DNA of 37,619 nt, taken from positions 1-37,619 of the forward strand of contig JAAYWZ010000075.1 of the NCBI GenBank assembly GCA_012516175.1, read 5' to 3'. Each line of letters begins with the position of its first letter. The stretch's first letter is position 1. Below are positions 10,322-15,055 of this stretch, piece after piece. Position numbers and translations under genes: made by a program. Source of the DNA: Bacilli bacterium (GTDB lineage Bacteria > Bacillota_I > Bacilli_A > Haloplasmatales > Haloplasmataceae). The notes under the pieces are model-generated. The model searched no databases, was not told the DNA's origin, and was given only the letters and a program-made list of their open reading frames with translations.

Positions 10322-10424
10322 ATGTGCACCTCCTTCAATTAATACTAAGACTCGCCATACAGGTAACAGTAATTGTTTTTAAGACCTGTTCTGAGCGGTT
10401 GTAGTTACACGCGGTGCCTACAAC
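10322..10424 (-). ncRNA. L21 leader (autoregulatory 5' UTR of rplU)
   Basis: About 100 nt of untranslated leader between the mapped promoter and rplU. It folds into a 7-bp stem (10418-10424 with 10399-10405) enclosing the GCACCGCGTGTAA element typical of the Bacillota L21 leader, and a second hairpin with a 6-bp arm (10384-10389 with 10360-10365). Position, promoter and sequence fit the known leader family in which L21 is thought to bind its own mRNA. The call rests on recognition of position and core sequence, not on a covariance-model search. Confidence 0.75.
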
Positions 10425-10462: not shown

Positions 10463-11209
10463 TTATTTACTGATTAATAGCCTTTTTAGAACATCTTCTT
10501 CATCTAATAGTTGATGTTCTAAAAAGAAAACATGATGGTATCCTTTATAAAAATGATGATAAATTATGTGCTTATCAATTAATCTGCTTATAATAATTTT
10601 CTTTGGTAATTTCTTATTAGGATGCAAGTATTTATACCATAAAAAAGTAAAATATTCCTCTGATATGTTAAGATAGTTTTTAAGATTTATATAAATAAAA
10701 CTCATTAATATTATGCTTAAACTAGTTGTCTTAATGCAAATAATTACAAGAATTATTCCAGTAATAACCGAAAAAACACTTATAAGCTTTAAGACTAATT
10801 TATATGGTATAAAATATTGTTTTAAAGTCATGATGATTTTTCCCCCATCTAAGGGAATGATGGGGATAAGATTCATAAGAAAGATGTAATAAGAACTAGC
10901 AATGAAGACCTCATTTAATTTGAAAAACCGAACCAGAAAATATAATGAAAAACTAAAAAGGGGACCGCCCAGATAAATCAATAATTCTTTAAAATTTCGA
11001 TCATTTTGACACCCATCAAGATATAAGATACCACCAATTGGCGAAATCTCTAACAGAGTTACTTTCTTTTTAAATAGTTTAATGACAACAAGATGTCCTA
11101 ATTCATGTACACATAAACAAAGATAGAGTATAAGTACTTGATACAATAATCCAGAAAACAAACATAAAATTAAATATATTAATGTTAGTAATTGAAATCT
11201 AACTTTCAT
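10463..11209 (-). CDS. spoIVFB: Stage IV sporulation protein FB, M50 intramembrane metalloprotease
   Basis: Site-2-type protease that in Bacillus cleaves pro-SigmaK in the outer forespore membrane. The zinc motif HELGH is at residues 35-39 in a hydrophobic helix, and the third ligand region NLIPIIPLDGGK lies near residue 121. Several membrane helices. 248 residues, about 40 fewer than B. subtilis; the C-terminal part (the CBS domain in Bacillus) looks shortened. It overlaps the upstream spoIVFA by 4 nt and lies next to rplU, exactly as in B. subtilis. Confidence 0.9.
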   Translation of the reverse strand: MKVRFQLLTLIYLILCLFSGLLYQVLILYLCLCVHELGHLVVIKLFKKKVTLLEISPIGGILYLDGCQNDRNFKELLIYLGGPLFSFSLYFLVRFFKLNEVFIASSYYIFLMNLIPIIPLDGGKIIMTLKQYFIPYKLVLKLISVFSVITGIILVIICIKTTSLSIILMSFIYINLKNYLNISEEYFTFLWYKYLHPNKKLPKKIIISRLIDKHIIYHHFYKGYHHVFFLEHQLLDEEDVLKRLLISK

Positions 11210-11832
11210 TCTTCATTAATCACATCAATTACATCAAGATATTCTTTGTTATAATAAATGGCAAGATAATATTCACCATTAAAGTTTTCATTTATCCTTC
11301 CTAAACCTAAAACATCCCCTTTACTAATGATGCTATACATTCCTACTTCGATGTTTTCTAATAAGCCATAATGAAATTCTCTCCCTGATTCATCTTGAAT
11401 AACTAAAACTCTTCCTAATGACTCATCTTCGTAGATACGGATTACGATACCATCAGTTAAAGCTTGCACTGGTTCGGCATAATCTGTTTCAATGATAATT
11501 CCATTTAGATAATCCTTTGTATTATCAAGATCAATCACAATCGAGCCAACAAACTCGTCCTTCTGATAATTAGGGATGATGCCCACAAGAGTATTATCAA
11601 CAAAGCGTTTAACCTTCATGAAATTCATGTTTTTCGAAGCATAATCATAAATAAAATGTAATTTCTCATTACTTCTGCTTATTAGTAAACATAAAAGAAC
11701 GATGATACTTGCGAGGATTTGATTAAAGAGTTTCATTATATAAATAGAATAATGTTTTTTTTCTCGATAATGATTTGCATAAAATTGTTGGTGTTTCCGT
11801 TTCTTAATTATTTTTTTAAGTCTACGATTCAT
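11206..11832 (-). CDS. spoIVFA: Stage IV sporulation protein FA (SpoIVFB regulator, degenerate M23 domain)
   Basis: In Bacillus SpoIVFA tethers and inhibits SpoIVFB together with BofA. The product has a very basic N-terminus, one membrane helix (about residues 33-50) and a C-terminal LytM/M23-like domain (PVQALTDGIVIRIYED through HYGLLENIEVGMYS to KGDVLGLGRI). That domain lacks the zinc-binding H-x-H of active endopeptidases, as SpoIVFA does. Start at ATG 11832, 4 nt after GGGGTGA. Stop overlaps the start of spoIVFB. Identification rests on domain order plus synteny. Confidence 0.85.
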   Translation of the reverse strand: MNRRLKKIIKKRKHQQFYANHYREKKHYSIYIMKLFNQILASIIVLLCLLISRSNEKLHFIYDYASKNMNFMKVKRFVDNTLVGIIPNYQKDEFVGSIVIDLDNTKDYLNGIIIETDYAEPVQALTDGIVIRIYEDESLGRVLVIQDESGREFHYGLLENIEVGMYSIISKGDVLGLGRINENFNGEYYLAIYYNKEYLDVIDVINEE

Positions 11833-11891
11833 CAAATCACCCCTTGTCTACTACATCATATGAAAAATAACTAAATTTTATTAATAAATTT

Positions 11892-12284: not shown

Positions 12285-12725
12285 TTACCTATATACTCCC
12301 TGAAGATAATCAAGCTTCATCTTGCCAAGTAGCGAGAAATAACCTAACCCAACAAAGAGAATACCTATTCCCAAATCTTGTAATGCAATTTTACGAGTTT
12401 CTGATAAAGAATAAACTAACATGATATTATCTAATGTGATTGATACATCAGCTTGATAAAGCATAATGATAACCACAAGGATATGTGCAATTAATAATGC
12501 CAGTAGACAAGGGATGATTAAGAGATACTTCGATAGTCTTGTCACAACCCCACCAAAAAGTTTATAACCTTGATAGGCACCGTAACAGATTAACATCCCG
12601 AATACAGCCGCGTAGCCCCAAATTATCGCTAACACAATCCAAGGGAAACTTGCGACTATTGCCCCAATTAATGCACCAAGTAATCCTTTTCCGTAATGTT
12701 TAGGTAGATTATTAAAGGCTTCCTG
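12285..12725 (-). CDS. C-terminal membrane part of the zinc-ribbon/membrane gene (after in-frame TGA)
   Basis: This stretch is in the same reading frame as the gene just upstream (12726-13205) and is separated from it only by one TGA codon. It begins QEAFNNLPKHYGKGLLGA and continues through a Gly-rich first helix, GYKLFGG, and about four membrane helices to TAA at 12285. There is no ATG, GTG or TTG with a ribosome site near its beginning. The first possible in-frame start, GTG 12635, would remove the conserved first helix. I therefore read it as the second half of one protein of about 306 codons, made only by readthrough of UGA (context UGA-C) or else broken. Function unknown; zinc-ribbon plus membrane-helix proteins of this layout occur in Bacillota. 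Confidence 0.65.
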   Translation of the reverse strand, partial: QEAFNNLPKHYGKGLLGALIGAIVASFPWIVLAIIWGYAAVFGMLICYGAYQGYKLFGGVVTRLSKYLLIIPCLLALLIAHILVVIIMLYQADVSITLDNIMLVYSLSETRKIALQDLGIGILFVGLGYFSLLGKMKLDYLQGVYR

Positions 12726-13205
12726 TCACTTTTTCATTTTTGATTCAAACTCTTCACGACATTTACTGTGACAATGATATTTGATCTTATTGATTATTAC
12801 AGTAGAATCACTATCATTACCTTTACAATATCGACAGACTTTTTCATAACTAATATTAATATCCTTTAAGAACTTGATAACTGTATTAATTAAATGATGA
12901 AATTCTTCAATCTTAAATTTCTTATAAACCTCAAGGAGTCTAATAACTAAGACATTTAAATCATCAATGACATATTCTCTAATCTTTAAATTCAAACTAT
13001 TTGCTTTCAGAAATACCATTAACTGTTCTTTTTGTTCCTGTGTAGGATCATTTAGAGGAATATAGATGATTCTGCCATTATTACGGGGGTCAAAATAATC
13101 AATATAGTTTCTTACCGTAATTAAGTAATCATCAATATTAATATAGAGATAGTTCTTGTGGTACTCATAATGATATGTTTCAGCTAGTTGTTTTAATAAA
13201 CTCAC
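12726..13205 (-). CDS. N-terminal zinc-ribbon part of a predicted membrane protein, ends at in-frame TGA
   Basis: From GTG 13205 (AGGAGAAGG 4 nt upstream) 159 residues run to a TGA. The N-terminal part (SLLKQLAETYHYEYH through IIYIPLND) is a soluble mixed alpha/beta region. Near the C-terminal end a likely zinc ribbon CRYC-x(17)-CHSKC with a nearby His is visible. In same-frame continuation after the TGA comes a Gly-rich multi-helix membrane domain (12285-12725). A zinc-finger soluble domain joined to a membrane tail is a sensible single protein, so the TGA looks like an interruption rather than a natural end. Function unknown. A GyrI-like gene ends 26 nt upstream, so the two are probably cotranscribed. 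Confidence 0.65.
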   Translation of the reverse strand: MSLLKQLAETYHYEYHKNYLYINIDDYLITVRNYIDYFDPRNNGRIIYIPLNDPTQEQKEQLMVFLKANSLNLKIREYVIDDLNVLVIRLLEVYKKFKIEEFHHLINTVIKFLKDINISYEKVCRYCKGNDSDSTVIINKIKYHCHSKCREEFESKMKK

Positions 13206-13231
13206 TGATCCTTCTCCTCTCAATAACATAC

Positions 13232-13753
13232 CTACTTAACGAAGAAACAGATATCGAGAATTACTTCTCCCTTTTCATCTGGTTCTGTAAAACGGGGACA
13301 ATTATAACGTTCAAAGAACCACAACTCATCCAACTCATTTGGAAGAGCATCCATTCCATTTTCCCTAATCTTCTTTAAACACTCTTCTTCCATGCAATAA
13401 ATAGCAGGAATTTCCCCTTTAACCCAAGCCACTCCAAGCTTACTTTCCGGAAAATCTACTGAACTGAATCCTTCTGGTACTATAGTATCTTCTGGTAGGA
13501 ACATCCCAATCCAGTATTCAAATCTCGCGTCTGGTTTTACCCGCATTAAACCAACATAACAATCAGCTTCTACAAAAAAGTCTTTCAAATCTCCTTGATA
13601 AGTAGCTTCTAGAACATTAAACCAACCATGTTCAAACCATTCATCCCATTTAGCACTAAAAGAGCCATTAATCCGATCTTCAGCAAAATACCGCTTACCG
13701 ATAAAACGTGTTTTGGGCATAGTTTCTACATAAACCTTAATAATTTCTGGCAT
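13232..13753 (-). CDS. GyrI-like small-molecule-binding domain protein
   Basis: A 173-residue stand-alone effector-binding (GyrI/AraC-E-bind type) domain. It has the typical opening IIKVYVETMPKTRFIGKRY, a middle YVGLMRV strand and a C-terminal strand motif PRFTEPDEKGEVILDICFFV. There is no DNA-binding domain attached. Such proteins bind small molecules, and some inhibit gyrase or hydrolyse cyclopropanoid toxins; which applies here is unknown. GAGGGG lies 6 nt before the ATG. It precedes the zinc-ribbon/membrane gene. Confidence 0.8.
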   Translation of the reverse strand: MPEIIKVYVETMPKTRFIGKRYFAEDRINGSFSAKWDEWFEHGWFNVLEATYQGDLKDFFVEADCYVGLMRVKPDARFEYWIGMFLPEDTIVPEGFSSVDFPESKLGVAWVKGEIPAIYCMEEECLKKIRENGMDALPNELDELWFFERYNCPRFTEPDEKGEVILDICFFVK

Positions 13754-13822: not shown

Positions 13823-15055
13823 TTAAATATACCTTGCTTCACGTAAACTTACATAACCTTCCGTCCCAATGATAATATGGTCTAGTACTTCAATCCCCAT
13901 TAACTCACCGATTTCAACTAATCTTTTGGTGACATTGATATCTTGTGGACTTGGTGTAGGATCGTTGGATCGAATGAAGCATGCTTCACCCTTCCACAGA
14001 ACCGTACGTACGACTTTCACCGTATACGGCTCGCTGGTGTTACCCTGTCTTTCTTCCCCCTGCTTACCTCATTACAAGAAAACTTTGGGTACTACAAAGA
14101 CTCCGTTACCCTATGCATAAACACTTAGGTAATCCCTGCCTTTTGTCTAATAATAGATTCGTAGTGATTAGGTATCCCTTTTGATGTTTTCCTATTACCT
14201 AGGACTAGTGGACAACCCTTACGATGATGGAACTAGCGAAAAAAGATCCATCATTTTGTCCAACTTACCTCTTAACTATCGTAGATAAGTGAGATTCCAC
14301 TCCTATCCATCTAGGATTCAAGCAGTATAGCCTTTACCATCCACTACTTGGCTAAAAAGAACCTTTCTAGATAGTTTCAAAAGATTCTCTCTTTACGCAT
14401 CATGCTTTTGTCCCTCTATAAGGTTTCCCTGCAAGGTTAGATGCTCACCAGAGAACATTGTAAGGAGTTCTCGATTACTAAGTAATCACTACTATTAGAC
14501 CCTGTGCAGGCGCACTCCGCTGGGATGATTATGAACCACAATAATTGAAGCACAACCATGGCGTAAAGCTTCCTTAAAGACTTCAATGGGACTAACATTT
14601 GCCCTTGTTAAGGTACCTTTAAAGAGGACTTTCTTTGCGAGAATTCGATTTTTCGCATCTAAATAAATGCCAATAAAATGCTCCTGTTCTAGTTGCTTAA
14701 TTTCTTCCGCAATGTATTCTGCACATTCACTGGGCGATTTGATTTGATAACCACGCTCAATTACCGCACCATTAATTCTAACTGCAAGTTCAATTGTCGC
14801 TAGTAACTGAATCGCTTTAGTCCTGCCTATACCTTTTATGTTTAATAGTTCATCAATTGTAAGATGTTTAAGACTAGCGAGATGAGGATACTTATTAATA
14901 AGTTCCTGTGCTAAAGTAAGGGCGGATTTCTGTTTCGAACCAGTTCGAAGTATAATGGCAATTAACTCGACATTGCTTAAATAATTAGCACCTCTTTTCT
15001 CTAGTTTTTCTCGTGGCCGTTCTGATTCAGGTAAATCTTTGATTTTATAATGCAT
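13823..15055 (-). CDS. radC: RadC JAMM-domain protein, two exons split by a group II intron
   Basis: RadC (MPN/JAMM metalloprotein of uncertain role, once linked to DNA repair). Exon 1 is 14516-15055 (180 codons) and exon 2 is 13823-13963 (46 codons plus stop); joined they give 226 residues, the normal RadC length. The N-terminal helix-hairpin-helix ([15 protein letters not shown]) is in exon 1. The metal-binding JAMM motif H175-N-H177-P-S-G180 ends exon 1, and D181-P-T-P-S185-P-Q-D188 opens exon 2, so the join restores H-x-H-P-x-G-x(3)-P-S-x-x-D exactly, in phase 0. Unspliced, exon 1 reads six residues into the intron and stops. AAGGAGGG lies 4 nt before the ATG. The position between the spoIIB-like gene and the spoIVFA region matches B. 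subtilis. Confidence 0.93.
13964..14515 (-). mobile_element. ORF-less group II intron (552 nt) inside radC, sense orientation
   Basis: The 5' end is GTGCGCC at 14515 and the 3' end AC at 13964. Domain V is the 34-nt element at 13999-14032 (minus GAGCCGTATACGGTGAAAGT continuing to ACGGTTC), with the AGC triad and a GAAA tetraloop. Domain VI (13964-13998) folds as a hairpin with a bulged A at 13970, seven bases from the 3' splice site. EBS1 (TTCGCT, 14235-14240) lies in the loop of an 8-bp stem and pairs with exon bases AGCGGA (one G-U). EBS2 (GGATGG, 14337-14342) lies in another loop and pairs with exon TCATCC (one G-U). Having both EBS1 and EBS2 argues against class IIC. The start resembles that of Ll.LtrB. 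No reverse transcriptase/maturase frame is present on either strand, so splicing would need a maturase in trans. This accounts for the 550-base stretch without a gene. Confidence 0.93.

Follow-up and report, generated by a model that had tools for sequence, protein, structure and literature searches.

The gene studied here raises the question of whether a UGA in the interior of a long open frame separates two proteins, interrupts one, or is read as an amino acid. Within the window, by which we mean the whole analysed stretch of 37,619 nucleotides, the minus-strand frame 13205-12285 was translated as 159 sense codons, a TGA at 12728-12726, a further 146 sense codons and then a TAA. An earlier sequence-only reading had taken this to be a single frame across a UGA at codon 160, encoding one protein of about 306 residues that the UGA cuts. 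Translation agreed with it on the frame, and the homologues described below agreed with it on the protein, since in the orthologue and the paralogues the two parts share a single frame that has a sense codon where the window gene has UGA. Our verdict is that the event is an ordinary one, in which a nonsense codon interrupts one member of a protein family absent from the libraries searched. The gene probably suffered a recent nonsense mutation as a dispensable paralogue, which would leave a soluble zinc-ribbon protein of ~159 amino acids.

Layout of the interrupted gene

The features of the gene are collected in Table 1. There are 1504 TGA triplets in the window, counting both strands, and only the one at codon 160 has at least 150 open codons before it and at least 140 after it; the two halves are therefore not a chance pair of frames. 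The first in-frame ATG, GTG or TTG 3' of the UGA is a GTG at 12635 (codon 191). Because this lies downstream of G174, G177, A178, G181 and W189, the most conserved residues where the membrane domain begins, the membrane part is without a start of its own, as the sequence-only reading had held. That reading had also described a ribbon with a C-x2-C and a C-x3-C pair. The first pair stands (C124 and C127), while the second is H146-x2-C149; these four ligands are invariant in seven family members and C145 is not conserved. An intron or insertion at the UGA site was rejected, there being no extra bases relative to the orthologue. The gene upstream, 13232-13753 on the minus strand, stops 26 bases short of the GTG, and its product bears a resemblance, below cut-off, to effector-binding Cass2 domains (PF14526, E 1e-4).

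Table 1. Features of the interrupted gene, with positions in the window
Feature	Position	Strand	Basis
Strong Shine-Dalgarno-like AGGAGAAGG, 5' of the GTG start	13210..13218	-	sequence
Soluble N-terminal domain, residues 1-120, GTG start at 13205	12846..13205	-	translation, alignment; without Pfam/NCBIfam match above cut-off
Zinc ribbon, C124-x2-C127 ... H146-x2-C149	12759..12836	-	alignment of 7 family members
UGA in frame at codon 160, next base C; the same-genus orthologue has CGT (Arg)	12726..12728	-	translation, orthologue comparison
Gly-rich membrane domain, residues 161-306; frame open but lacking a usable start	12288..12725	-	translation, alignment
TAA, original stop of the full-length frame	12285..12287	-	translation

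Scans against Pfam and NCBIfam gave no family above cut-off, and profile searches of the PDB gave only weak matches, to the ClpX ribbon and to bestrophin-like helices. An AlphaFold model built from two-sequence input was poor (mean pLDDT 54). The resemblance to the N-terminal zinc-binding domain of ClpX (PDB 1ovx) extends over the ribbon with an E value of 0.022. In contrast to that domain, the second ligand pair here is H-x2-C rather than C-x2-C, no AAA+ domain is present, and a membrane domain is attached; assignment to the ClpX zinc-binding domain was rejected on the ligand pair, the E value and the lack of a Pfam match. Judging from its anatomy, the family probably consists of membrane-anchored proteins that hold their soluble domain and zinc ribbon on the cytosolic side, where these bind a partner. 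An automated gene caller would list a short soluble protein at this locus and miss the membrane half.

Homologues and ancestry

One other genome of the same genus was present among those compared (G001, a Bacilli bacterium MAG, contig JAAZCR010000187.1). Its orthologue is 66% identical to the window protein over residues 27-299 (273 residues) and is a single open frame of 279 codons, cut by the contig end, with the arginine codon CGT at the position of the TGA. Synteny with this genome is kept downstream, through a coiled-coil frame (103 and 98 amino acids), the frames 11206-11835 and 10463-11209, and L21. A second paralogue, full length and in one frame, is found in the window's own genome (G000, contig C40) as well as in G001, G002, G004 and G007. 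Throughout the class Bacilli 52 of 395 genomes gave matches, most of them frames of approximately 285-330 amino acids that contain both parts and no internal stops. Given a one-frame orthologue and one-frame relatives across the Bacilli, the two parts were ancestrally one protein. Homologues with a sense codon at the stop and an in-frame continuation, the pattern by which a pseudogene is recognised, were thus found on alignment. The residue aligned with the UGA is Arg, Glu, Ala, Asp, Lys, Val or Thr, never Cys, and the site falls in a poorly conserved hydrophilic linker.

Homologues that end at the ribbon, with the membrane part encoded as a separate gene, would have told against a single protein, and such forms are the minority of the matches. 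The few soluble-only relatives are a frame of 177 amino acids with a Lys-rich end in G007 and one of 173 amino acids in G248, the former placed by the tree in the other paralogue clade. The membrane module is also found by itself or as the N-terminal part of other proteins (G082, G213, G384 and G302); in the latter three (L092, L093 and L094, respectively) it begins proteins of ~400 amino acids with an unrelated C-terminal part. To judge from these sequences, the soluble and membrane parts are modules, yet one protein in the lineage of the window gene. The class Bacilli accordingly harbors a family, made of a cytosolic domain, a zinc ribbon and a Gly-rich membrane domain and without a Pfam or NCBIfam match, whose members include soluble-only, membrane-only and full-length forms side by side. 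The two soluble-only relatives, and the fact that the truncated product keeps the whole ribbon, would fit a soluble half retained as a functional stand-alone gene whose stop is now selected. However, as the membrane half of the window gene shows no damage, such a change could only be recent, and the soluble-only copy in G007 belongs to the other clade; we hold this account to be very improbable.

Genetic code and possible recoding of the UGA

The genetic code of the window genome is standard. UGA ends five of the 40 genes in the window, no other internal in-frame stop occurs in the 40 window frames examined, and RF2 (prfB) is present in the genome. The tRNA-Trp has the anticodon CCA, and the only tRNA with a UCA anticodon found among the 33 recovered, an incomplete set, is tRNA-Sec; a suppressor tRNA may have been missed. 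Reassignment of UGA to tryptophan (code 4) was rejected on the lack of a tRNA-Trp(UCA) among the recovered tRNAs, the presence of RF2, the use of UGA to end genes and the lack of a further in-frame UGA in the window genes examined.

By every sign in its sequence, the window genome decodes selenocysteine. It carries selB together with the tRNA-Sec, and frames resembling selA and selD lie nearby (names read from translations). At this Sec locus (L070, G000:C205:10000-21000) selA-, selB- and selD-like frames are found beside tRNA-Sec and glycine-reductase-like genes, and the selD-like and grdA-like frames each have an interrupting UGA where Sec normally stands. The window gene resembles those of the SelD and GrdA selenoproteins in that it carries an in-frame UGA and its genome encodes tRNA-Sec and SelB. 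It differs in that its homologues lack Cys at the site, the linker there is of low conservation and holds no redox motif, and no SECIS is evident; a simple scan 3' of the UGA did not find a hairpin of note, although the same scan also missed one at grdA and is by itself a weak test. The machinery at hand makes selenocysteine a fair contender, but neither Cys nor Sec occurs at the aligned position in homologues. Because no aligned relative has Cys there, we consider insertion of selenocysteine at codon 160 the least credible of the explanations.

Readthrough would have the near-cognate tRNA-Trp(CCA) read the UGA at a few per cent, whether as background or with a function, giving mostly soluble and partly membrane-anchored products. 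The base after the UGA is a C, a context that the sequence-only reading called often leaky in bacteria (our results speak neither for nor against a functional leak), the tail beyond it is intact, and the tRNA-Trp of the genome, as read from sequence, has an A at position 24. G24A is cited in PMC13092985 as facilitating readthrough of UGA, and wild-type B. subtilis showed 6% readthrough of a catA86 UGA (Karow et al. 1998, as quoted in PMC7918605). The latter paper also describes bacterial genes that contain an in-frame stop and yet have a dN/dS below 1 (PMC7918605). On the other hand, the UGA is missing from the only same-genus orthologue found, the anticodon stem of the tRNA-Trp appears to be a canonical one of 5 bp with a G-U at its top (read from sequence), and the predicted folding of the RNA 3' of the UGA is no more stable than that of shuffled sequence (z 0.2-0.3). 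Low-level insertion of Trp at codon 160 is possible, yet a background leak is not by itself a function, and readthrough as the explanation of the gene is improbable. Programmed readthrough at the boundary between the soluble zinc-ribbon domain and the membrane anchor, making two forms from one gene, had no positive evidence and is more improbable still. Were readthrough real, one gene would provide both a soluble and a membrane-anchored form.

A probable recent nonsense mutation

The explanation that we favor is that the ancestral gene encoded one protein of ~306 residues, in which a cytosolic domain is followed by a treble-clef-like zinc ribbon, then by a charged linker and finally by a Gly-rich membrane domain of four helices, and that a nonsense substitution in the linker created the UGA at codon 160 in the window genome. 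RF2 would end translation there, presumably with efficiency, releasing a soluble protein of ~159 amino acids, and the membrane half would stay untranslated save for any background leak. The lesion would be young and the gene a dispensable second copy, with the intact paralogue at G000:C40 keeping the full form while the window copy yields only the unanchored half. This proposal draws on the one-frame homologues, the intact paralogue, the use of UGA as an ordinary stop and a second broken orthologue, which was found in G002. The G002 copy lies near the window gene in the tree and has a TAA at codon 27 as well as a frameshift at the junction of ribbon and membrane domain. G002 is of another genus (g2), and the paralogue decayed there independently. 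The membrane half of this broken copy (L067:5189-6104, on G002:C5) has an overlapping GTG start.

Between G000 and G001 the pN/pS ratio is 0.30 before the UGA and 0.34 after it, and thus both halves evolved under purifying selection for most of the divergence of the two genomes. In simulations of neutral decay, a tail of 146 codons that had taken 60 substitutions (0.14 per site) was still free of a second stop in about 10% of cases. As the tail has no second stop, the UGA is either young or followed by a tail that is still translated. Amino-acid changes polarised with the G002 copy as reference fell on the window and G001 branches at 5:11 before the UGA and 12:8 after it (Fisher p = 0.11), so that the window branch shows only a non-significant trend to relaxation after the UGA and decay is not directly visible. 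Counting against a nonsense mutation is that the codon of the orthologue, CGT, would, if ancestral, require two changes to become TGA.

An error of assembly or sequencing would mean that 12726-12728 is a sense codon in the organism and that the protein is made at full length. The assembly is fragmented (207 contigs), and there is exactly one lesion in a frame that is otherwise intact and shows no significant excess of change. Against this, the other window genes examined contain no other in-frame stop, and real nonsense mutations are a priori commoner than single-base errors in a consensus. We infer that the lesion lies in the organism, an error of assembly or sequencing being unlikely.

Nonsense-interrupted genes, i.e. 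recent pseudogenes, likewise have a single in-frame stop within a frame that is otherwise intact and conserved (Belinky et al. 2021, PMC7918605). Compared with these, the window gene is distinctive only in the clean position of its stop at a domain boundary. No relevant match came from a search of the literature for a published example.

Other elements in the window

The radC gene of the window is split by an ORF-less group II intron of 552 nt (13964-14515, minus strand) that starts with GTGCGCC and matches Rfam RF00029 at 13964-14034 with 61.9 bits. Its exons, approximately 14516-15055 and 13823-13963, form one frame, and the intron interrupts the conserved metal-site motif precisely at the junction of HPSG and DPTPS. 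It is present as a single copy in the window genome and absent from seven relatives of the order; one other RF00029 match is found in the genome, at C207:14685-14768. A ribosomal protein L21 leader (RF00559, 57 bits) is located at 10338-10410 on the minus strand.
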